Translations under genes and position numbers: made by a program
Shown: piece by piece, positions 5,415-60,983 of the stretch
How the letters are laid out: each line of letters opens with the position of its first letter
Position numbering within the stretch: the first letter of the stretch is position 1
Notes under the pieces: generated by a model
The model's database searches: none
What the model saw: only the letters and a program-made list of their open reading frames with translations
Told to the model about the DNA's origin: nothing
From: Gigantopelta aegis
Lineage: Eukaryota > Mollusca > Gastropoda > Neomphalida > Peltospiridae
Direction: 5' to 3'
DNA: 64,000 nucleotides
NCBI RefSeq assembly: GCF_016097555.1
Contig: NC_054706.1
Location: forward strand, 45,487,728-45,551,727

Positions 5415-7197
5415 ATGGCTGGTCTTAGAAGGATAGAATTTGTTCAATCACAAAAAAAGGTTCACCACAAGTAATATTGGATGGATTTTTATTTGCAAAG
5501 AATCGCACCAGAGGGGAAAGTGTTCACTGGAGATGCGTGACAAAAAACGTGTACCGGGAAATGCACCACTGTCGGCGAATTTGTACGGAACACATCGGAA
5601 CACAACCATCTTTCAAGTGATCCGAATGTTGCTCGGTTTATCAGCATACTACGGAAGCGAGCAAGAGAAGAAACAACACCTATGCAGCAAATATACAATG
5701 ATGAGGTTGCAAAGCAAGCATTAGAAACTGTTCCTCATTTGCCTTCCTTTCCCAGTATGAGCAGTGCACTGTACAGACAGAGACGAGTTCTGATACCTGC
5801 CCTACCACAGACTAGAGCCGATGTCATCCTAGAAGAACCATGGACACAGACAAATGACGGAAGACGCTACCTGTTATTTAGCGATGGAAATGAAGATAAC
5901 ACATGGGCGGATCCAAGGGGGGGGGGGACCAGGGGGACGCGTCCCCCCCAAAAAATTGTTCAAGTGCCCTCAAAATGTCCAAGTGCCCTTTTTGTTTGTA
6001 GAATTTTTTTTTTTTTAAGTAAACAATAATTATATTGTAGATAAATGAAATCAAGATTTTCGTGTACATGCGCAAGCTTGCAGATATGTGTCTGTGTTAT
6101 TGAGTCTCAATGGGGCCCCATTGAGGTTCTAACGCGAGTGACGCCAATTTACTTCATTATTGCTAGTATATTATGACGTAGAACTGTAGGAATTCATATT
6201 AATTGTAAATATCAAAACTTGTAGTAAGGTGCCCTTTTGACGAGTCAATGTGCCCTTCTTTTTTGGTCCCCCCCTAAAAATATTTCCTGGATCCGCCCAT
6301 GTAACATGCTTGTGTTCTCTACAGATTAGCAAATCGTAGCTCTACAGGCTGCAGAATCCATTTTTATGGACGGAACTTTCTCTTCTTGTCCAGCATTGTG
6401 GAACCAATTATACATCATCCATGCTATGGACGGAACCACTATGTATCCCCTTGTGTTTGCTCTTCTTCCCGATAAACAGAGGATAACATACATTAGACTG
6501 TTCAGTTTGTTGAAAAATGAAGTTCAACAATTATTAAACCAACCCCTTGCTCCAAGTAAAGTTTGAGACTGATTTTGAGATGGCTGCAATCCAGGCAGTT
6601 GAGACGGAGTTTCCGCAAGCTGAAGTAAAAGGGTGCTTTTTTCACTTTACACAGGCCATTTGGAGGAAAACTCAAGAACTGGGTCTTGCTGTTTTGTACA
6701 AAGAAGATCCAGCTGTACAGACATGGATTCGGAGGGCTGCTGGACTACCACTTTTGCCCATTGCACAAGTACAGGATGCATGGTTAGAAGCCATGAACGA
6801 CGGACCTGATGTTCCACAGGCGGAGGCATTTAATGATTATGTTGTTTTAACATGGGTAGACGATGACTCCAGATTCCCTTTGATTGTATGGAACCATCAT
6901 CCGACCACTGGCCCAAGAACAAATAATAATCTGGAGGGATTTCATTCCAGAATAAATCGTTCAATCCAAGTTCATCATCCAAACATATACCGATTTGTAG
7001 AATTAATCAAAGGAATAGAGACCTCCGAACGTGCTAAATTGAGACAGATAAACTTTGGAGCTGCCCCACCACCAAGAAAGAGGGTGTATAAGCAGAATGA
7101 AAATAGAATCGTGAGATTGAAGGCGCAACTAACCCTTGAACAGAAAACACCCATTCAGTTCTTGGATGCTGTTGGACATCTGTTAAAATTAGTATAA
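5415..7197 (+). pseudogene. Mutator-like (MULE) transposase with FLYWCH finger, broken
   Basis: A MULE DDE transposase would cut and insert its own element. The N-terminal part (about 5440-5690) has a FLYWCH-like zinc finger: DGFLFAKNRTRGE, HWRC and a HNH near the end, spread over more than one frame. The catalytic part starts at FMDGTFSSCP (first D, about 6365) and continues with FETDFE (second D) and GCFFHFTQAIWR; the C-terminal ORF at 6547-7197 is the longest intact stretch. The reading frame is shifted several times and carries stops (for example between VFSTD and QIVAL near 6327), and a 400-bp MITE splits it at 5902. The element is dead as a protein source. An AATAAA lies near 7268. Terminal inverted repeats were not resolved. 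Confidence 0.75.
5902..6301. mobile_element. 400-bp MITE inserted in the MULE transposase
   Basis: Inverted ends CATGGGCGGATCC and GGATCCGCCCATG, flanked by a perfect 5-bp direct repeat TAACA (5897-5901 and 6302-6306). The flanking coding sequence becomes continuous (GNEDN followed by MLVFSTD) once the insert is left out, as in other MULE transposases. Internally it has a G-run and C-run near the left end and AT-rich sequence. Confidence 0.85.
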
Positions 7198-10007: not shown

Positions 10008-10880
10008 TCATTTATCACCTTCTTTCAACCATTCACTGTTCAGGATATCTTTAGTGGTGTATCTTTTAGTCTGGTCTGGCTCCAAAACACTTTTCAGTAA
10101 ACATTTGCACGACTCCGGAAGTGGGTTTGCCACTCTTCTGGACAGCGATATGCCTTTGTCCTGGGACTGAATCATCCTCTTGAGACTGATGTCATCGAAG
10201 GGCATCTTGCCAAACAGCATGACGAACAGAACGCAGCCCATACCCCACACGTCACTGCCTTTGCCGTCGTAGGGAATCCCTCGAATGATCTGTGGACAAG
10301 CGTACGCACAGCTTCCGCAGTATGTCCTGCACAATTCGTTGTCCTTGATCGTCCGAGAAAAGCCGAAATCGCTAACAATGATGTCTCCGTTTTCCTTGAT
10401 GAGGATATTTTCACACTTGATGTCTCGATGGATTATGTTGTTCTCGTGGAGATAGTCTACAGCCATGGCCATCTGCCTGAACGCGCGCTTGGCCTCCTGC
10501 TCGCTCATGGCGCCCTTGTTGGTAATGAAGTCCATCATATCGCCTTTGGCCGCGTATTCCATTATAACGAACACCCAGTCGTCGATGTGAATGATCTCCT
10601 CCACGCTGGCGATGTGCTCGTGGTGCACTTTGACCATGATGTCCAGCTCTCTGGGAAGAAACGTCTCTACGTAGTCCTGTGCGGCAGACTTTATGTTGAT
10701 GATTTTCGTCACTAGAGTTTTACCGTCCGACTTTCTCTTGACGAGTCGCACCTGGGAATAGGTTCCCGAGCCGATCTTGGAACCCAATAAGTAACCTTTG
10801 TCGTCCAGCATCTCGGCCAGTTCTGCAAATTCGTTCGTAACAAAGGATGGACGTATCGACATCACTAACTGTGTAATCAC
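10008..10880 (-). CDS. Testis-specific serine/threonine kinase-like protein (TSSK family)
   Basis: A 290-residue, single-exon protein kinase. By homology to TSSKs it would phosphorylate sperm proteins during spermiogenesis. Motifs: glycine loop GSGTYSQV (37-44), the invariant Lys in TLVTKII (K59), helix-C Glu in PRELDIM (E78), catalytic loop HRDIKCENIL (151-160), DFGFSR (171-176), an activation loop with CRTYCGSCAYA, then PYDGKGSDVWGMG and PFDD. The HRD(I/L)KCEN plus DFGFSR plus GIPYD combination is typical of TSSK. The usual APE reads CPQ (195-197), so the structural Glu is Gln. The length fits short TSSKs, which are also often intronless. Met7 (MSIRPSFV) is an alternative start. No poly-A signal is evident nearby. 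The family call is firm; the subfamily number cannot be given. Confidence 0.9.
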   Translation of the reverse strand: MITQLVMSIRPSFVTNEFAELAEMLDDKGYLLGSKIGSGTYSQVRLVKRKSDGKTLVTKIINIKSAAQDYVETFLPRELDIMVKVHHEHIASVEEIIHIDDWVFVIMEYAAKGDMMDFITNKGAMSEQEAKRAFRQMAMAVDYLHENNIIHRDIKCENILIKENGDIIVSDFGFSRTIKDNELCRTYCGSCAYACPQIIRGIPYDGKGSDVWGMGCVLFVMLFGKMPFDDISLKRMIQSQDKGISLSRRVANPLPESCKCLLKSVLEPDQTKRYTTKDILNSEWLKEGDK

Positions 10881-10959
10881 GCTAATGCACTTGTGTACAT
10901 CTGTCGTACCTACCCCCTAAAGAGATACAAGGCTCTCCGGAGTACCGTGGATAACATTT

Positions 10960-19370: not shown

Positions 19371-19802
19371 TTTTGTTGAGTACATGTATACGACTGAAAG
19401 AACCTGGAATCAGATTGAATCTGTTATTTTATCATGGCTATGTTGAGTGTATGACTGATAGAACCTGGAATCAGATAGAATCTGTTATTTTATCATGGCT
19501 ATGTTGAGTGTACGACTGATAGAACCTGGAATTCGATAGAATCAGTTATTTTATCATGGCTATGTTGAGTGTACGACTGAAAGAACCTAGAATCCGATAG
19601 AATCTGTTATTTTATCATGGCTATGTTGAGAGTACGACTGAAAGAACCTGGAATCCGATAGAATCTGTTATTTTATCATGGCTATGTTGAGTGTATGACT
19701 GAAAGAACCTGGAATCCGATAGAATCTGTTATTTTATCATGGCTATGTTCAGTGTACGACTGAAAGAACCTGGAATCCGAAAGAATCTGTTATTTTATCA
19801 TG
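19371..19802. repeat. 61-bp minisatellite, about 7 copies
   Basis: The unit contains ACTGAAAGAACCTGGAATCC, GATAGAATCTGTTATTTTAT and CATGGCTATGTTGAGTGTAC. Each copy shifts one base per 60-base line, giving a 61-bp period. Copies differ by only a few substitutions, so it expanded recently. Confidence 0.9.
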
Positions 19803-20779
19803 GTTATTCCAGAACTGGTCACATGGGAAGTATCTTTTACAAACCCACCAGGGTCCTCAAAATATAAATGTTTATGTAATTTGAATGACAAAGCTGTTAT
19901 TATGATCAAAATCATATTTCCGCACAAGGCAGAGTTGAAAGGGCATTGGCAAAGCTGTAAATCACTAAATGTTTCCAGGAATTGCCATCAGACGCTTTTT
20001 CTGCAGGAGAACTACCACTCATCATAACACTACTCCTAAGTCGTCTGTAGGAAGACTGCCATGTCCAAGACTGATTTGACCAATCTAAAATGACACCAGA
20101 CAGACATCTACACAGCACATACAGGGAACTGATGTGGAAGACACACCACAAGTGACAAATAAAATATCATGGTGCCTTCCAACACGTGTAATATATTGCG
20201 GGATTCCTATTCTTACCACAAGACAGTTCAAACATGTGTAACCTATGCTTACAAAATTAACGTAAGGCTTAAATTATATCTGGAGATTTTAACATGAAGA
20301 CAAGACCATACATATTAAAATTATATGTATGACATTGTTCACCATTCCCACAACAAGTAATGTTTGGCAGTAATCTATTGCACTTTAATACATTATGTTC
20401 ATTCTCCCTTTCAAGAATAACTAGTTACTGTACAAACTGCATTTAGACTAATAGTTTTAGTTTAATAAGACAAGACTTTTTGCCTTTTTTAACAATCAAG
20501 ATCGGGAGTGGGCAAAGCACTCCTCAGAATTAATACAACTTTCCGTAACTTTTTAAAAGCATTTTCCACCATCTTTAATAGTACTTTCATGGATTTTTTC
20601 TGTGATCATCAACATAATCTAATAATATTACAATATTCCCACACAAGTTATTGATCTCTCATTGTGACATTTTAAATGAAAAAAAAAAGAAGCATTTTTA
20701 TTAAATTTTCCATAACTTTTCATAGCGTGATTGAAAATTCCACAACTTCCACACACCTGGAAAATGACATTTACAAATT
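19803..20779. other. AT-rich stretch downstream of TXNDC15
   Basis: One 75-codon open frame begins at 19800 but resembles nothing I know and starts inside the minisatellite. No supported gene. Confidence 0.3.
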
Positions 20780-24904: not shown

Positions 24905-25290
24905 CATAATACATCATAGTACAAGAAAGATACATCACGGTACAGGGAAGATACATCATGGTACAGGAAAGATGCATCACGGGACAGGAAAGATACATCA
25001 CGGGACAGGAAAGATACATAACGGTACAGGAAAGATACATCATGGCACAGGAAAGATACATCATGTACCGGAAAGATACATCATGGCACATGAAAGATAC
25101 ATCACGGTACAGGGAAGATACATCATGGTACAGGAAAGATGCATCACGGGACAGGAAAGAGACATCACGGGACAGGAAAGATACATAATGGTACAGGAAA
25201 GATACATCATGGTACAGGAAAGATACATCATGGCACAGGAAAGATACATCATGGTACAAGAAAGATACATCAAGTACAGGAAAGACAAGT
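24905..25290. repeat. 21-bp minisatellite, about 18 units, in a TXNDC15 intron
   Basis: Unit AAGATACATCATGGTACAGG plus A, with CGG/TGG and TAC/GAC variants. It starts about 30 bp upstream of the splice acceptor of the middle exon. An eight-unit block is itself duplicated (see findings). The long open frames through it on both strands are a by-product of the period being a multiple of three. Confidence 0.95.
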
Positions 25291-26427: not shown

Positions 26428-26590
26428 TTTCCCTTGATTATTACATCGAGTACGACTTTTCAGTGTCCGATGGGTTACCATGATCACAAGGCACGGAACC
26501 GAAAAAGTGTTTCCCATGAAATTTGAAATCCTATGGCCTGCTCTACTACACAGGAATTTGAATATATGCATGAAAAGCTTACTAACTTAC

Positions 26591-27311
26591 TTGCTAAACT
26601 GTGCAACATCCACGGCAAGCACCTCAAGCTGGGGAAATGCTCGAGCCATTGCATTATAGTGAGGAGCAGTTTTTGCACAAAAATGACACCACGGGGCATA
26701 AAATAAAACTAAGACGCAATCTGAAACTGTGTAGTTCTTATTAAAAGTTAGCATCTCGATCAGCACGGTGCCGTTCACAATCTCAACAACAGGTGGTCGG
26801 CTAGTAGCATTGGCAGTCAAATTTTTGCCTAAACACTGAAATTTAAATTTTTTATTGCCATCCGTTCCATTCTTGGAATCATTGTTGTTAGAAGTATTTT
26901 CGGCAGTGGTATTCCCCGGCAACACCAATGATAAGATATTTGGCGTGTGTTGAGAATCACTCGTTTCATTTTTGTCTTTTTCAGCCTGAACGTCTTCTTG
27001 GAATTCGTGAATAAACGGATTCAAGAAGCTTTTCACGAAATTTGTTAGAGAAAAAAACTTGTTGTCTTTGTTGTCAATCTTTTTTTCCACATGCTCAGTG
27101 ATAGTTGGTGCATCAAGAGCATTTTCAGTTGATGTTTTGGATTGGTCAGCAATAGTCTCTCCACTAACTCCAGGTTCTGTATTCTGTATGGCTATTGGCT
27201 GATCGGACTGTGTGTATAATATCTTGGTTTCTTCAGTTTCAGTTTTTTCTTTTTGTATATTACTAGAAGCCAATTCTTGACACATAATTCTAGCAAATGG
27301 TGCAGTTAAAA
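26591..27311 (-). CDS. TXNDC15: TXNDC15, large exon (luminal region and thioredoxin active site)
   Basis: A 721-bp exon between an acceptor (TTTCTTTTCAG, ends 27312) and a consensus donor GTAAGT at 26590. It encodes a long, acidic, low-complexity luminal region with several Asn-glycosylation sequons (NTTAEN, NKNETS), then a thioredoxin domain: VLVLFYAPWCHFCAKTAP, FPQLEVLAVDVAQFS. The active-site motif is CHFC, at about 26677-26688. Two bases at each end are shared with neighbouring exons. The frame stays open to an upstream Met at 27360, but that part crosses the acceptor and reads intron, so the real start with its signal peptide should lie in an exon above 27311 that I could not identify. 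Confidence 0.88.
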
Positions 27312-27529
27312 CTGAAAAGAAAGAAGAAAAGAAATAAATTGTAAAGTATTTAGTGTACATATATCTTAAGTGGTTAACAAATGAATTAATTCCATATTGG
27401 TGATATTAATTACTTTACAAACTAAATCTACTCTATATTTGTCCATGTTTCCATAATTTGTGTACAATACCAGAATTACCTAGGTAAAATGCAAAGTTTA
27501 AGCAGCCACATCTAGAACCTTTAGCAGTT

Positions 27530-32857: not shown

Positions 32858-33278
32858 CATGTTAACTAATAATGTTGTATTTTACATTTTAACCCTCTAG
32901 TGCCCAACTTGTGAAACTAAATATTAGCGTTCAGTATATTAGGTCTGAAAATGGTATTCGAATATTAGATAGAAATGACGAGCAAATATTCGGATACCAA
33001 TTAAAAACAACTGACTCAAACTAACCCCAGATAGCACAACTACGTTGGCCCAACGTCGCCATGGTTGGCACTATCGCCGTCGCCGGCCTAACGTTGCCAT
33101 GACGTTGCCATGACGTTGCCGTTGCCGATCTCGCCTCACCTTGCAACTGCGTGAGGAAAACTCTGACCTTCACCTTTAATATTTGAAAACCATAATATAT
33201 AGTGTACTATCTAGTTTGCTTTAAAATTTGCGTTAATCACAAGTGATTATTTGAAGCAACACTAAATTACTTTGAACG

Positions 33279-33549
33279 TCATTCATTTCAACTTATTTTC
33301 GTGCTTATATCCAATTAAGGTTCAAACACGCTGTCCTGGGCACACACCTCAGTTATCTCGACTGTCTGTCCAGGACAGCGGGTTAGTTGTTAGTGGTTAA
33401 TGAGACGGAAGAGAGTGTAGTGGCCTTACACCTACCTATTGAGTCGTTAAAACTTGCTCTGGGTGGGAGCCGGTACCGGGCTGCGAACCCTGTCTGTACC
33501 TACCAGCCTTATGTCCGATGGCTTAACCACGACGCCACCGAGGCCGGTT
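33279..33549 (-). repeat. SINE S4, full length
   Basis: Tail CAACTTATTTTCGTGCTTAT at the left, head ending in GCCACCGAGGCCGGTT at the right. Confidence 0.9.
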
Positions 33550-34035
33550 TACTTTGAACTAACATTGTAACAGGGTAAAAAAAGAAGTTTTATAGTTGAC
33601 GACAATACAATCTTACCAATCGAAATAAGTCAAACAAATTGCAAGAATTTCCTAATTCATCGCTGATATCGAATCTGAACACTATTTCCTGTCATTGTAT
33701 TGTTCATTTATTTCTACTAATAGTCAAAGTTCATAAATTGTGTTTAACGTTTAATTGTGTTTGTTTTGCGCTTCTTTGACCTGTCCTTGTATTAAATCAA
33801 CTAAAATGGCAGCAGCTGTCAAAGTAATAAAGTAACGCCGGCGATTCTGCGGAAATAATAAAATACCACACGCTAGAAAATTGGCGCAGAATATCTGTAA
33901 GTAATATTAATCATTTCTGTATTGTTTACTTTGTCAGTTACTAAAACGTCTATCAAAAACATCACTAACATGGAATACTCTTCAAGAGGGGTGGTACAAA
34001 TTAATCACCCATACACCGGGAACCGAACGTCCGTA

Positions 34036-34037
<2 letters not shown>

Positions 34038-34092
<55 letters not shown>
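34038..34092. repeat. (CA)n microsatellite
   Basis: About 27 CA units within the 6-kb element. Confidence 0.95.
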
Positions 34093-34094
<2 letters not shown>

Positions 34095-35139
34095 ATATCC
34101 CCCACATATTTATACAGCGTGTTTAATTTGTTTCTCTTGCACTCGTTTTTAGATTTTACCTAGTTACATTATTTGGTATGATAAATAATGAAACTAGAAA
34201 ACAATTATCAACATTAAATATTTATAGTATGGAAATTCAAAACCAAAGATTAGGCCATTATAAATATTTTACAAAGGAAATTTTAAATGGAAAAAATTAT
34301 ATAAAAAAAATTGTAATTATAATAAATTTAATTAATAATTCTGTATTTAAATAACAGAAACAGAAATCTCAGCTTGTTTTGAAATAAACAGAAAAACCCC
34401 ACAAACAAAATAAAGCAGTAATAATAATAATAAAAAACATTCAAAAAATCTTATTAATATCTCGGTATCTTATCATTCCAGGAAACATTTTGTTTTCAAA
34501 ATCTTGATTAGTGGTATTTCTTGTTAATTGAAAATTGAGTAGCAACTGCTGTTTAATGTTTTAAAATTATGTAGCGATCTCTGATACTTATGTAGCAAAT
34601 CACGACGCGATACTGAACAAAATGTTACCTGCATTCTCTCCCCTTCTTCTCTCTCACTGTTTTCCTTTCTTATTTTATTTTTCAAAAAGCTAAACATCTC
34701 TTTATGAATGCTATAATTATATTATATATTTGTTTAATTTAATATATTTGATGTCGTTAAAAGCATATTGTAAGGCAGTGATTCAGGGCTCCCCAAGCCT
34801 GACATTCTCATTGATCTGGGGATAATAAAATTTATAATTAAAAAATATATGATATTTATATTAACACTATTAGCATCTACAGAGTGATATTGAAAATTTC
34901 AGACAGTCTGCTTGAAATTTTTGTAGTAAGGTGTGGACATAATGTATTATATTATTTGTTCACAAAAAATAATCTTTCAAAACATTTATTTTAAATCCTG
35001 TGACATATTCTAACAAATAGTATAAATCTGTAATGTGTGATTTTAATATGTATTTTAAGAGCTGAACAATTAATATAACATCCACTTGCAACATATTTTA
35101 ATGATATTTAATGCTGCTGTATTTATGTATTACATATAG
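34093..35139. other. AT-rich interior of the 6-kb element
   Basis: No coding exon recognised; probably intronic to the DUF4806 gene. Confidence 0.3.
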
Positions 35140-35298
35140 GTTGCCTATTTGAATTCTTTGGACGCATAACAGCAAAGGATCTCATTGAGAGAATAATGGA
35201 GTGCATATTCACTCAGTCCTTCGCCTGTCAGTACAACTGGGTTGGCAGGAGGAAAAAAAACGGCATCAGGAAATTAATTCCCAGAAAGGTGATACAAG
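35140..35298 (+). CDS. DUF4806-domain exon
   Basis: Starts after acceptor TACATATAG with two bases of a split codon and ends at CAAG|GTATTA. It encodes CLFEFFGRITAKDLIERIM, ECIFTQSFACQYNWVG and RRKKNGIRKLIPRKVI, matching the DUF4806 pattern (a Gly-containing turn, a helix with D-x-x-x-R-I-M, F-T-x-x-x-A, then Y-x-W-x-G-x-x-x-K). The function of DUF4806 is unknown; such proteins are common in invertebrate genomes and often lie near mobile elements, as I recall. An alternative donor AAG|GTGATA lies 10 bases earlier. The upstream exons were not recognised. Confidence 0.6.
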
Positions 35299-35353
35299 GT
35301 ATTATTACCCCTAATATTATGGTTCAAAATATCTTGGTACGTATCAAAGTGTT

Positions 35354-36496
35354 TGTGACGGTACATGCTCTTAATCTCTTTTCGCCTGTGGCGATATTAA
35401 TTGTTTTAGAAGACCGTGTGCAGTTCCAAATGCCCTTAGCTAGGTGGGCAACTTGTTACGTAATACTTCTGCGCGATGGTCGTCTAATACACACCCAGAG
35501 CAGGTGTGGAGGTCATGTGGCCAGTAGTTACGTAATACCTCCGCGCGACCGTGGAATCTCTAGCGCACTGGCGACATTAAGTCTGACGATCTGAGGAAAA
35601 AAATACCGCTTGGTCGCGGTGGAAATATCAGATGATAAGATTCGGTGCCGCGATTTACCCCCAGGTGATATTTCGATTTATAATAAATAGCTAGTGTTTT
35701 AGAGTTATGAGGAGAAGCAAAAAGGACGGCTCCCAGGGAACGTAGTCCGTTTGGACTTTGGTAAATATTTTATTTCTGCTCTGTTGTATAACCTTGATGT
35801 GATTGATGTGACTTTAAATATTTTAATACTGTATTATACCAATATTCTTTATACAGTGTCTTCGGTCATCTGACGAAGTAAATCGTAGACTTTTTGTTCT
35901 AACATTATACGAGTATTTGGTAATATAAAGCTTAGCCAGTCATCCTAGAAGACCTAGGTAAACTGTAGGTTATTGTCTTTATTGTGATATGTACCAGTAT
36001 TAATCCTGTGTTACAAGGTTACTGAATGAGTAGTTAAGGGTTAATTAAAAATTAACCAGTTAGGAATAGAGTGGTAATTCCTTTATTAATTAACTTCTCC
36101 TGGAAGCGTTTCTCAATTATTATACATGTGGGTGTTGTGTCACGGTGAAGTGATTCGCATATTGTGTAAACTAGACTCCTAGAGATTAACTAATTAAGTG
36201 ATCAGTTCTGGGTTGTTATTATTGTTGTTATTAATTAACTACTACGGCTGTACATTTGTCAGCGTAGGTTAATACAGATTCCAAAGTGTATTGTGTTTTT
36301 GTTGTGTTTTCTAGTGAACTAAACGTGCTATAATAATATATACCTTATATAAGATCGTATCTCTGATATACCTAGAGACGAGCCACAGCGGGTATATACC
36401 GCCTGTTACAGAGAGATCTAATAGATATACAGTTAGGAGAGATATTTGGATAATCGTGTTTTATTCAGTTACAGGTATTATAGAATCCCCGTGACA
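35354..36496 (+). mobile_element. Solo LTR of an LTR retrotransposon
   Basis: Begins TGTGACGG and ends CCCCGTGACA, with the TG...CA ends of LTRs. It is flanked by a perfect 5-bp direct repeat GTGTT (35349-35353 and 36497-36501). At 1143 bp with no internal coding region it is a fossil left by recombination between two LTRs. The family is not resolved; Ty3/Gypsy-like is a guess from size and ends. The perfect duplication suggests it is not very old. It lies in an intron of the DUF4806 gene. Confidence 0.8.
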
Positions 36497-36784
36497 GTGT
36501 TACAACCCACTAGGAGTGTAACGTCCCACTTGACGTCACAAATGATCACCGTCTGCATTCTTATACACTGATTTCTCAATTTAATACATAATTATTTGGG
36601 TAATAAATAGGATATTAGACTGGAAATAATTTTTATTTGTCACTCACTAAGGCAAATAAAAATAATTTCACTTGTGACATAAACTTGATAAGAAATGGAC
36701 AGTCGTTTGAGATCCTATAATAAACTACACAGACACGAAATATCTATTGTTTGTTAGAAATTTGTTAGTATATGCATATATTAA

Positions 36785-37165
36785 AGGGACATTCCTGACT
36801 TTGCTGCAATTTTTAAGATGTTATCGACTAACAGAGACTTTTTGACGACTGTATTTACATATCAAATATATTTTTCTACATAAAATATTAGTGGCTGTAT
36901 ATTAAACGTGTTTCTGATCGTTCTAATATATGTACTAGGTTAAATTTCATTTTATTTCCTAAAAAGGATTTTTTCGTACGTACGAAACTATTTGAAGACA
37001 AAATCCAGTTTGGGCTTCTTACAAATATTAAGACGACCAGAAACACATTGAATATACAGTCACTGATATTCTAAACAAGAAAATTTATTGAATATGTAAG
37101 TTTAACGTAGGACTATTTTATTAGTCGGAAATATCTTACAATGCAGAAAACTCGGGAATGTCACT
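36785..37165. mobile_element. TTAA MITE (piggyBac-like), 381 bp
   Basis: TIRs AGGGACATTCCTGA and its near complement (TCGGGAATGTCACT), continuing to TTTGCTGCA/TGCAGAAAA, flanked by TTAA on both sides (36781-36784 and 37166-37169). TTAA duplication is the piggyBac signature. Confidence 0.8.
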
Positions 37166-37335
37166 TTAAGTTTACAATGATTAATTTTGCTAATAATTCA
37201 AGTTAAAAACCATTAACTCAATAATGTTCAACTTCTAATTTCTTCAAGCTATAATTGGGTTAACTTGTGACATAATTCTACATCTAATAAGTTGAAAATA
37301 TGTATTTAATATTTGCCATTTCTTATTTTCTGAAG

Positions 37336-37418
37336 ATACTGCCAAAAAAACAGCGACATAAAAGACGCAGGAGCGGAACTGCATCTTAGAAATTGGTTAA
37401 GATATGCATCAGACCGAA
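37336..37418 (+). CDS. DUF4806 gene, second exon segment
   Basis: Acceptor TTTTCTGAAG|A, donor A|GTGAGT. The frame DIKDAGAELHLRNWLRYASDR fits the C-terminal helix of DUF4806 (a K/R-N-W-L-x-x-A-x-D-R end). Its last base joins the next exon to give Thr. The frame entering from the previous exon is off by one base in an A7 run at 37344-37350, so either a one-base indel or another splice site applies. This gene copy may be dead. Confidence 0.5.
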
Positions 37419-37868
37419 GTGAGTGTCGCAAAAGGAAGTGAGGTTTTGCCATCATATTTGACTATTTTCGGTTTATAATTTTATTAGGGCTATTCCTTTT
37501 TTTAGTCATGAGGTGGGGAGGAGAGGGCCTGGACATTGTTGGACCCCTTATCTACACATTTTCAGTATTTTGTAATAATGGTGAACATAGCTGAATCTGT
37601 ATAAAGACATCCCTCCCTACATTTAGAAAAATCTTCAGGCTTAACCCCACCCATTTTAAAAAAGAAATATCCATTATATCTTTTTAAACATATTTAATGT
37701 GTAACACTGAATAAGATAAAACAAATAAAGAACTAAGACACGACAAGTAATGTCCATCAACATGGAACAAAATAAGACAAAGCCTATAGTTGTATATCAC
37801 ACCTGTATGTGGCAAGACATGTAATAGCTAGATTATTTAGTTTTAGAATTATGAATAAGTAAAAAAAA
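37419..37868. other. Intron-like sequence of the 6-kb element
   Basis: AT-rich, no coding signal. Confidence 0.3.
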
Positions 37869-37869
37869 A

Positions 37870-38193
37870 GAAAGAAATGTTTTGTTTAACGACGCTCAAC
37901 ACATTTTAATTACGGTTATATGGCGTCAGACATATTGCTAAGGACAACACAGATATTGAGAGAGGAAATCCACTGTCGCCACTTCATGGGCTACTCTTTC
38001 CGATTAGCAGCAAGAGATCTTTTATATGCACCATCCCACAGACGGGATAGCACATACCACGGCCTTTGATATACCAGTCGTGGTGCACTGACTGGCTGTG
38101 ACGAGAAATAGCCCAATGGACCCACCGACGGGGATCGATCCCAGACCGACCGCGCATCGAGCGAGCGCTGTACTACTGAGCTACGTCCCGCTC
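37870..38193 (-). repeat. SINE S2, full length, head-to-head with the next
   Basis: Tail AAAGAAATGTTTTGTTTAAC first, box B region GGGGATCGATCCCAGACCG near 38129, head ending in GAGCTACGTCCCGCTC at 38193. Confidence 0.9.
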
Positions 38194-38212
38194 CTACGAA
38201 TAAATAGTTTCA

Positions 38213-38511
38213 TGGGGCGGGATGTAGCCCAGTGGTAAAGCGCTCGCTTGATGCCCGGTCGGTTTGGGATCGATCCCCGTCGGTGGGCCCATTGGGCTAT
38301 TTCTCGTTCCAGCCGGGTATATCAAAGTCCATGGTATGTGCTATCCTGCCTGTGGGATGGTGCATATAAAAGATCTCTTGCTACTAATGAATAAATATAG
38401 TGGGTTTCCTCTCTAAGACTATGTCAAAATGACCAAATGTTTGACATTCAATAGTCATTGATTAATAAATCACTGTGCTCTAGTGGTGTCGTTAAACAAA
38501 ACAAACTTTAA
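38213..38511 (+). repeat. SINE S1, full length
   Basis: Head GGGGCGGGATGTAGCCCAG at 38213, box B GGGATCGATCCCCG, tail AAACAAAACAAACTTTAAG. Only 19 bp separate it from the oppositely oriented SINE to its left, so the tRNA-like heads face each other. Confidence 0.9.
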
Positions 38512-38728
38512 GTACGTTCATTTTAACTCCAGGAAATGTTATATGTTATGAATTTTTATAACAGTAATAGTCTGAACAAGGAGATATTTGCGTATACTGA
38601 ATACACACGAACAAACGTTTTATTCAGTGGTATTCTTTAATTTTAAATAATTTCAGTTGTATATTTAAGACTAAACTGTTGAAATCCTTTTAGTATGACA
38701 TCCTTATCTTCTGCATTTGTCATTGCAG

Positions 38729-38778
38729 CACTTGAGGAGGAGAGGCAACGTGCGAGACCAGCAGCCACGAAGACGTAG
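38729..38778 (+). CDS. DUF4806 gene, terminal exon
   Basis: Acceptor TCATTGCAG; joined in phase to the previous donor it reads T-LEEERQRARPAATKT and stop. The basic, Glu/Arg-rich tail is short. An AATAAA follows 45 bp after the stop. Confidence 0.5.
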
Positions 38779-38823
38779 TCGGAATCCGAAACGATGATAA
38801 ACAAGATTGATATGTAGTTCGAT

Positions 38824-38829
38824 AATAAA
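38824..38829 (+). terminator. Poly-A signal AATAAA of the DUF4806 gene
   Basis: AATAAA in GATAATAAATG, 45 bp after the predicted stop, just before the right subterminal repeats. Confidence 0.5.
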
Positions 38830-38867
38830 TGTTACATCTGTGCTTTTGTTATTCTTAATTACATAGG

Positions 38868-39073
38868 CCCAATGTTGGCACAATGTTGGGCCAACTATAT
38901 AACGCGGTATGGAAATCTTGGCACAACGTTAGTGCACCGTTGGTGCAACGTGGAATTACCAACATTGAGCCAACGTTGGCCCAACGGACAAAATGACCAT
39001 GTGCCAACGTCGGCAGTCAACGGTGCGGTTTACGTTGGGCCAAAGTTTGGCCAACCATGGTGTGCTATCTGGG
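38868..39073. repeat. Right subterminal repeat cluster of the 6-kb element
   Basis: Repeated GTTGGC/GCCAAC words (CCCAATGTTGGC, GTTGGGCCAAC, GAGCCAACGTTGGCCC) in both orientations, ending in the TIR. The left end has a shorter equivalent cluster at 33026-33140. Confidence 0.8.
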
Positions 39074-39079
39074 ACGTCT

Positions 39080-39565
39080 TTTTTTCATAGCTTGAATTTT
39101 GTAATGAACTTTTTAATAAACATCCCCACAAAAACAAGTTTCTCGTATGACAGAAAACAAATAAAAATCATAATACTTGAGTGACTAGTACATGTAGCTA
39201 ATCTAGCTTTATTTTGACTTCTTGTCAAGTATTAATTTACTGAATTATCAACAACATATTATGAACAAAACAAAAAATATATAAAACAAATATGAGGCGG
39301 GAACTTATATAGGATTAGATGAATTACTAGGTGTTTTTGTTTTTTTTGTTTGCCAGAAAATGTAGCGTTCTAGCTTTGAAGTACCGACTGAACGAAATGC
39401 GGTGGATTTATTGTTTACAGAATTAGAAACATTGCAAAGTGTGACAGGAGGACAATACAAAACACAGTTAACATACACGACAAGAACAAGCATCAACACA
39501 GACATAGATACTTGTAGTTAACATAGAACATCGGCTACCTAATCAAAATGGCTAAAAAAAACCAA
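39080..39565. other. Intergenic AT-rich sequence
   Basis: No gene or recognised repeat. Confidence 0.3.
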
Positions 39566-46300: not shown

Positions 46301-46525
46301 TTTCTCGTGTGTCAAATGCGTCCGCGATGTTCATTGGCCTATTACTCTCAGTTCATTCATTCAGCAAATCACACACGCCGTTTTCCGGCGTGCGCTTTTC
46401 AGCGACCTTGTGATAAATGAACCCGGTGTGGTAATTTATCGTGGAAACGGCGTGTGCGAGAGAAGGGTTTCTCCGTGAATTTGTCGCTTGCACGTGAGTG
46501 AAGAGCCACGACTATCGGTTCCAAG
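46301..46525 (+). promoter_or_regulatory. Likely 5' UTR/promoter of the elongase gene
   Basis: Composition rises sharply in CpG (GCCGTTTTCCGGCGTGCGC, GGAAACGGCGTGTGCG) immediately upstream of the ATG, unlike the AT-rich surroundings. No TATA box is obvious. Inferred from composition and position only. Confidence 0.4.
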
Positions 46526-47329
46526 ATGGCACTGATGGGAGAACACAACTACTCGTACCTGTTCCACTTCGAGAAAAATTTCGACGAACCGTCCTTCTTC
46601 AAGTTTATGCTCGAGAGATGGACCGACTCATTTTTTTATTCAGGAATGTACGTCCTCGTAATATTTGGAGCCCAGATGTACATGAAAGAACGCCCAAGTT
46701 ACGGACTGAGACCGGCGTTGGCGCTGTGGAGTGGTTTGTTGGCGGTGTTCAGCATAATCGGCGCCATCCGCACCGTCCCGGAACTTCACACCGTCTTGCA
46801 AGTCCACGGGTTCCAGTATTCTATATGTGTGCCGACGTACTTCATAGGCCCCACGGGCTTCTGGTGCTTTTTGTTTACTGTTTCAAAAGTGTTCGAACTA
46901 GGGGACACGATATTCATCGTGTTGAGGAAGCAACAGCTAATCTTTCTACACTGGTATCATCACATAACGGTTCTACTGTATGTGTGGTACAGCTACGCTT
47001 CACACACCGCTGCCGGTAGGTGGTTCATGGTGATGAATTTCATAGTACATTCGTTCATGTATACCTACTATGCGTGCAGGGCCATGCGGTTCAATTTCCC
47101 AAAGTACGTCAACGTTGTCATCACGTCCTTGCAGCTCCTGCAGATGTCGGTGGGGTGCATCGTCAACATTTCCGTGTACCGAGTGAAAGCCAGGGGAGAA
47201 TATTGCCAGCAGAGTTACGAAAATTTGAAATACTCGTCACTGATGTATTTGAGTTATTTTATTCTGTTCGCACAGTTTTTCTATAATACATACATTGATA
47301 AAAAGCTTCCAGCAAAGAAAGCTGCATAA
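46526..47329 (+). CDS. ELOVL6: Very-long-chain fatty-acid elongase, ELOVL6-like
   Basis: A complete 267-residue protein in one exon. ELOVL enzymes condense malonyl-CoA with an acyl-CoA in the ER membrane, the first step of chain elongation; ELOVL6 acts on C12-C16 saturated and monounsaturated chains. Visible motifs: KVFELGDT (121-128), the histidine box HWYHH (142-146), NFIVHSFMYTYY (171-182) and TSLQLLQ (200-206). Several hydrophobic helices match the seven-pass topology, and the C-terminal KKAA fits an ER-retrieval signal. The length equals vertebrate ELOVL6 (about 265). The start ATG sits in CCAAGATGG, a good context. The vertebrate gene has several coding exons, so the single exon here suggests intron loss or a retrocopy under selection. 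AATAAA lies 121 bp after the stop. Confidence 0.93.
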   Translation: MALMGEHNYSYLFHFEKNFDEPSFFKFMLERWTDSFFYSGMYVLVIFGAQMYMKERPSYGLRPALALWSGLLAVFSIIGAIRTVPELHTVLQVHGFQYSICVPTYFIGPTGFWCFLFTVSKVFELGDTIFIVLRKQQLIFLHWYHHITVLLYVWYSYASHTAAGRWFMVMNFIVHSFMYTYYACRAMRFNFPKYVNVVITSLQLLQMSVGCIVNISVYRVKARGEYCQQSYENLKYSSLMYLSYFILFAQFFYNTYIDKKLPAKKAA

Positions 47330-59486: not shown

Positions 59487-60983
59487 TACTCTTCAAAAGA
59501 AGAAACGCAAAACCACATTGTCGTAACATTTGGAGAATTGATTTAATTATTGAATGGTGAGTCCGATAATTACCAAATGTTGCAGGATTGTTCACAATTC
59601 ACTCTAGTCCATTGTGAGTAAGTGATAGGACACACCACCAAGGTCAAGGTCATCTGGAGTCAATACCGGGTGTGGCCTCCGCGTGTGTTGACAACTGCCT
59701 GGCACCGCCTGCCCATTGAAGCAACCAGAGTACGGATGACGTCCCGGGGGATGGTGGCCCACTCGGCCTGCAAGGCTGCTGCCAGCTCGGGCAGGGTCTG
59801 GGGCTGTGGTTGTCGCTGTCGGAGGCGTCGGTCCAACTCGTCCCATAGATGCTCAATTGGGTTCAAATCCGGTGATATCGATGGCCAAGGAAGGACATTA
59901 ATGTTGTTGTTCTGTAGGAAAGCCGTTGTGAGACGTGCTGTGTGAGGCCTGGCGTTGTCATGTTGGAACACTACGTTGGCGTTGGCCATAACTGGAACGA
60001 TGTGTGGCCGGAGGATCTGGTCAATGTAGCCCTGTGCATTCAGGTTGCCCTGCACGTGGACCAGGTCAGTTCTGCCAGTGTGTGAGATGGCTGCCCACAC
60101 CATGACACTACCCCCGCCGAATCTGTCCACTTCCTGCACGCAGTTTGCCGCATAACGTTCACCACGACGCCTATACACGCGACATCTTCCATCATGACGT
60201 CGGAGCAGAAATCGGGACTCGTCACTGAACCACACCTGTCTCCATCGCAGTTGAGGCCATTGTCGATGAATCTGGCACCACTGCAGTCGGAGTCGACGGT
60301 GTTGTGGTGTTAAGATGACACCTCGAACTGGACGTCTGGCACGAATTCCTACCTCACGTAGGCGGTTCCGTACGGTCTGGTCGGATATCCTGCGCAAACC
60401 TGGTATTGCTGCGGCTGTGGAGGTGGCAGTAGTTAATCGTTCCCGAAGGTGGCGTTCCGGATGTAGCGGTCCTGCCCGGGGGTAGTGACCCGTGGTCGAC
60501 CGGATCTAGGGAGGTCACGTGTTGATCCATGTTGCTGGTAACGGTCCCACAGTCTGGAGATGGTGCTTGGGGACACATGGAATGCCCTGGCAACGGCCGT
60601 TCTGGATTCGCCTGCGTCTAGTCGGCCGATGGCATTGTTTCTCTGCGGTTCACTGAGACGTGGCATGTCCTGGATTGTCAACTGTCGGCCAGATACAGAG
60701 GCCAGGCAAGCGAACACCCTGCACTTTTATACTGTCGGTGTTCATGTTGCACGTGCAGACAACGCACGTGCAGTGGTGACATGGTTTGCACGTGGCTGCG
60801 TTTTTGCGAATATTCACATTTTGGAACTTTATTGTACAGTAGCTGCGTTTTATCGAATGTAACCGTGGGAATGTGTTTGGGACATGCAATGACCTTATAT
60901 TCACAAAGCATGAACCGGTAGGAAACATAAAATCGGAGTTATAACCCATTTGTACCCTTTTGCGTTTCTTTTTTTGAAGAGTA
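59487..60983 (-). mobile_element. Tc1/mariner transposon, about 1.5 kb
   Basis: TIRs TACTCTTCAAAAGAAGAAAC and GTTTCTTTTTTTGAAGAGTA extend to CGCAAAA, flanked by TA on both sides. The transposase is on the minus strand. It is a complete element in structure. Confidence 0.92.
59660..60717 (-). pseudogene. Tc1-like transposase, one frameshift
   Basis: Cut-and-paste transposase. The N-terminal helix-turn-helix part (60433-60717) begins best at MPRLSEPQRNNAIG and contains FHVSPSTISRLWDRY and a GRPR hook (RSGRPR). The catalytic part (59660-60397, 245 residues) has the DD34E triad: Asp in VWFSDESRF, Asp in FQHDNARPH and Glu in PDLNPIEHLWDELD. The two parts are in different frames; the break falls near 60440-60455, so this copy makes no full protein. 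Otherwise no internal stop is seen in either part, pointing to recent loss of activity. Confidence 0.9.

Follow-up and report, generated by a model that had tools for sequence, protein, structure and literature searches.

On balance, positions 33026 to 39073 of the DNA that we analyzed, a 64-kb stretch referred to here as the window, are best read as one old copy of a non-autonomous cut-and-paste DNA transposon that carries its own accessory DUF4806 gene. Our analysis supports the presence of part of a spliced DUF4806-type gene inside an element bounded by terminal inverted repeats (TIRs), with no visible transposase. The whole reading is based on one copy, within the 64-kb window.

Matched inverted termini

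The terminal sequence CCCAGATAGCACA has two exact copies in the window, at 33026-33038 (plus strand) and 39061-39073 (minus strand), which face outward. The 33026/39073 pair thus provides the matched inverted ends of a DNA transposon with TIRs. When up to 2 mismatches were allowed, 8 matches were obtained; 3 of these read CCCAGATAGCTGA and lie inside copies of one dispersed repeat. An exact inverted 13-mer is in itself weak evidence, since the window contains 101 runs of non-simple inverted 13-mers spaced 2 to 12 kb apart. We consider the pair to be beyond chance for three reasons. The left TIR (33026-33054, plus strand) and the right TIR (39045-39073, minus strand) are identical at 24 of their 29 bases, the end-to-end alignment inward of the 13-mer scored 63.5, whereas none of 500 letter shuffles scored above 46, and the two ends are filled with copies of a single motif. 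A first-pass annotation of this DNA had proposed an element of about 6 kb with inverted termini, which is borne out by the exact pair, the similarity of the terminal bases, and the motif shared behind both.

Both ends of the element begin with CCCAG. The sole repeat across the ends is AC/AC in the flanks, a 2-bp duplication of the kind expected by accident 1 time in 16, and no target duplication of 3 to 11 bp was found across the 33026/39073 flanks. Provided that the two ends stem from a single insertion, families that generate 7- to 9-bp duplications are unlikely.

Subterminal motif arrays

The motif shared by the two ends is the 11-bp sequence AACGTTGGCCC. With at most 2 mismatches, it has 3 sites in the left 135 bp (33026-33160, plus strand), 10 sites, some of them overlapping, in the right 213 bp (38861-39073, minus strand), and 4 sites in the other 63,652 bp of the window. 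Since the consensus was taken from the right end, the left count is a fair and independent test. The right array is dense and has an 11-bp period, and its sites start at approximately 38866. All 3 window copies of GTTGGCCCAAC and all 4 of TTGGCCCAA fall within the element ends. Motif sites are preferentially spaced by 11 bp, close to a single helical turn, and at 33091-33120 Tandem Repeats Finder reported an 11-bp unit, ACGTTGCCATG, in 2.7 copies. Identity at a lag of 11 was 0.401 for the right end, a value equaled or exceeded in 16 of 1,276 window tiles; for the left end it was a modest 0.355 (116 of 1,278 tiles were as high, and lag 6 scored higher at this end).

The available text of PMC6317261 gives CCAATTGG as the binding site of Insv. 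This site occurs twice in the window and is absent from the ends, and we therefore rejected it as the end motif. The end motif is CCAACGTTGG-like and has a CCAA half in common with the Insv site, a likeness that is suggestive at most.

These data bear on the alternative that an unrelated DUF4806 pseudogene lies by chance between two independent fragments of a motif-rich TIR family. The flanks accommodate no target duplication above 2 bp, neither end has a partner of its own nearby, and inverted 13-mers occur repeatedly in this DNA, all of which would suit two fragments. However, the ends point outward and match fully over their outermost 13 bp, no further end fragment was detected in the 64 kb at the sensitivity used, and only 4 motif sites were found elsewhere in the window. 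We regard two fragments as rather unlikely and proceed with a single element.

Domain evidence for a DUF4806-type gene

The central piece of the gene is an exon at 35140-35298 (plus strand; its end is at 35288 or 35298), which resembles the second half of the DUF4806 domain. In Pfam searches with this exon, DUF4806 was the best family in 5 of 5 tries (E 0.035 to 0.11), with scores of 13.2 to 14.9 bits for the partial domain versus a gathering score of 25 bits for PF16064. A Pfam E of 0.035 alone proves nothing, because the unrelated family YmcE_antitoxin reached E 0.0029 in a solo-LTR-like segment of the same element. We also employed a DUF4806 probe that was composed rather than taken from a database and that itself scores 2e-15 against Pfam DUF4806. 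With this probe, the 35140 exon ranked first of 2,156 window frames (E 3.4e-5), and the next frame had an E of 1.9. A second probe, composed with knowledge of the window sequence, gave E 4.9e-7 for the exon and ranked a frame at 37334 second (E 0.14); this frame dropped to third (E 1.4) when the two probes were combined.

A further exon was placed at 37336-37418 (plus strand; alternative acceptor at 37371), followed by the donor GTGAGT at 37419. It contains AELHLRNWLRYASDR, which resembles the region after the DUF4806 domain. This exon was not among the best 8 matches of the first probe, and its sequence does no more than suggest that it may be part of the DUF4806 gene. The first half of the domain was not found upstream among the best-ranked probe matches. 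When folded alone, the 35140 exon yielded a low-confidence prediction (pLDDT 62.8, pTM 0.25) of one helix and two strands, too poor for a structure search; no BEN chain was present among 4 weak PDB matches.

Could the exons be chance reading frames with no relation to DUF4806? The Pfam score lies under the cutoff, and long frames are not exceptional in this DNA, as 13 of the 79 window frames of at least 90 amino acids reach at least 160. Against this, the 35140 exon came first of all frames with the first, composed probe, at the E value given above, and DUF4806 was Pfam's top family for it in every try. Chance frames are thus a very improbable explanation.

Splicing and 3′ end of the gene

The first-pass annotation had described three exon-like segments with DUF4806-like residues, splice sites, and a poly-A signal, and a phase-matched join of the second and third exons. 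The latter was confirmed: joining 37418 to 38729 is in phase and creates a Thr codon (A|CA), from the donor at 37419 to the acceptor at 38729. The donor GTGAGT is equaled or surpassed by 37 of 3,884 window GTs; splice scores were derived from an approximate matrix, and none was exceptional. The last exon comprises 38729-38775 followed by the stop codon TAG at 38776-38778 (38729-38778 in all, plus strand), and after the join the protein ends with RYASDRTLEEERQRARPAATKT. An AATAAA poly-A signal lies at 38824-38829 (plus strand). Of the three-segment description, the 35140 exon with its probe match, the last join, and the AATAAA signal stand. The first join can be made in frame only with weak sites, and the domain is only partial: none of the GTs at 35289, 35299, and 35337 keeps the frame when joined to the best acceptor, 37336, and a join from 35299 to 37371 is in frame by phase but uses weak splice sites.

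Search for a transposase

We searched Pfam with all frames of at least 45 amino acids between 32900 and 39200. None of these 44 frames contained a transposase domain, or a domain of any other kind, at cutoff, which upholds the earlier observation that no transposase is visible. The shorter exon frame at 37334-37438 had no Pfam match. The sole transposase-type hint was HTH_Tnp_4 (E 0.088, 12.9 versus 27 bits) in frame 38859-38993 within the right array, which we take for chance. Elsewhere in the window, a MULE transposase-like frame is located at 6538-7194 (plus strand; Pfam MULE E 1.1e-4, 23 bits versus a cutoff of 27.6). It lies about 26 kb from the element, and no link to the element ends was seen. 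A Tc1/mariner-type transposase frame occupies 59663-60505 (minus strand; DDE_3 E 1.1e-17, HTH_Tnp_Tc3_2 E 5.2e-11).

Accessory gene or captured cargo

The first-pass annotation had offered two options, a captured host gene or an accessory protein of an unclassified transposon superfamily. A transposon might have captured a host DUF4806 gene, or part of one, as cargo without a role in transposition. The partial recognition of the domain, the lack of a transposase, and the retained introns are all in keeping with capture. On the other hand, the gene has its own poly-A signal at 38824, and its 3′ end lies approximately 40 to 90 bp inside the right array. Moreover, DUF4806 is described in the accessible part of PMC11075544 as a BEN subtype, a domain of the DNA-binding type, which suits an element with motif arrays at its ends. 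To judge from the sequence, the end arrays and the proximity of the gene end to the right array favor an accessory gene over a captured one, and we consider capture unlikely.

In our reading, an accessory gene would work as follows. An intact element would encode, in its DUF4806 gene, a small DNA-binding protein of its own. This protein would bind the AACGTTGGCCC arrays of the two ends and would help bring these together for the transposase. The transposase would have been lost from the copy at 33026-39073 or would be supplied in trans by another element. Integration would produce a target duplication of 2 bp (AC), judging by the flanks.

Comparison with known transposon systems

The closest parallels were found with CACTA / En-Spm elements. 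In the portion of PMC2613891 available, Tgmt*, a member of this group, has 13-bp terminal repeats, subterminal arrays of 4 sites on the left and 24 on the right, and a 3-bp target duplication; the group encodes a transposase together with TNPA, a DNA-binding protein that recognizes the subterminal repeats. On that description, the element resembles CACTA / En-Spm in its short ends, in its subterminal motif arrays, which are likewise uneven (3 and 10 sites here), and, if the AC repeat is one, in a short target duplication. An array-recognizing protein may be a further likeness, TNPA there and, by analogy, DUF4806 here. Unlike the described elements, the ends start with CCC and not with CAC, the duplication is at most 2 bp, no transposase was found, and DUF4806 is not TNPA. 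The non-CAC ends and the lack of an En/Spm-type transposase in the frames searched kept us from filing the element as an En/Spm member.

Two other groups were compared using the accessible text of PMC12730594. The KDZ group (Kyakuja, Dileera, and Zisupton) consists of DNA transposons, some of which carry, like the element, an extra gene, there of chromatin type (TET/JBP, in fungi). Zisupton produces 8-bp duplications and Kyakuja 7-bp duplications according to this text, whereas the flanks of the element agree at 1 of 8 and 2 of 7 bases, and no KDZ transposase was found. Membership in KDZ/Zisupton was rejected, as the 8-bp duplication is absent. In the Harbinger (PHIS) group, the same text describes Nuwa families that have a transposase plus a separate DNA-binding protein (Myb/SANT), and duplications of 0, 2, or 3 bp occur in the group; both features would fit our reading of the element. 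In contrast to Harbinger, neither a Myb/SANT nor a DDE domain was found in the element.

A broader proposal, which we put forward tentatively and consider possible but doubtful, is that the copy represents an undescribed family of animal transposons. In this family, a BEN-like DUF4806 protein would be the counterpart of TNPA and would recognize phased AACGTTGGCCC arrays at either end, and most of the numerous DUF4806 genes of some animal genomes would be accessory genes of such elements. A domain table in PMC7642931 that also lists transposase domains gives DUF4806 counts of 69 and 54 for its two Hydra columns, whereas the five other columns have 0 to 6; we also count this in favor of an accessory gene in the element. 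In the DUF4806 literature, as far as its accessible text goes (also under PF16064, IPR032071, and BEN domain), nothing links the domain to a transposon whose ends are of this kind. The literature retrieved with the terminal and array sequences contained, by title, no transposon paper. If the proposal is right, it would assign a role to this domain of unknown function, of which some animals have many copies. It would also name the DNA site to be bound by DUF4806, so that a single binding assay could serve as a test, and it would show that the two-protein En/Spm system of plants has an independent parallel in animals.

Nested insertions and age of the element

Several segments lie nested in the element. 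A dispersed repeat at 33267-33559 is bordered by an 11-bp target duplication, TTACTTTGAAC. A solo-LTR-like segment running from TGTGACGG to CCGTGACA occupies 35354-36496, within the intron, and is bordered by a 5-bp target duplication, GTGTT. It measures 1,143 bp, has TG..CA termini, and its ends are inverted at 7 of 8 bases. The scanned stretch contains two TG..CA pairs that have a duplication of at least 4 bp, this segment being one of them, and no second copy of the segment was found in the window. Two copies of a dispersed repeat other than that at 33267-33559 are present at 37861-38193 and, inverted relative to it, at 38214-38500, without a clear duplication. We take the nested dispersed repeats to be SINEs; ARAGORN and Rfam gave no match on 33000-39100. 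Provided that the nested segments were inserted into it, the element predates them.

Relatives in other collections and genomic context

We searched viral contigs and prokaryotic genome contigs for relatives. In the viral contigs, the TIR pattern matched 3 stretches, each with a single 10-base core and no partner; two were in long frames (602 and 900 amino acids) and one in a frame of 104 amino acids, and all were taken for chance. A looser TIR pattern matched 5 stretches there. Each of them lies in an open frame (about 1,000 amino acids in 4 cases and 208 in one) and lacks a partner end. The array pattern had 0 matches in the viral contigs, and the TIR pattern had 0 in the prokaryotic genome contigs. 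With the joined peptide, 9 stretches of viral contigs yielded 0 confirmed relatives, and alignment of the DUF4806 probe revealed no relative in viral contigs (34 stretches) or genome contigs (54 stretches). Since the collections searched consist of viruses and prokaryotes, this absence says little about animals.

In its spliced genes, dispersed repeats, and microsatellites, the window itself resembles animal DNA, and the type of its repeats may point to a mollusc. Host-type genes were recognized for a protein kinase (10011-10916, minus strand; Pkinase E 3.2e-64), a fatty-acid elongase (46502-47326, plus strand; ELO E 1.7e-65), and a thioredoxin-domain protein (26590-27405, minus strand; E 7.3e-8). 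Long tandem repeats with 61-bp and 21-bp units are found at 19389-19807 and 24909-25285, respectively.
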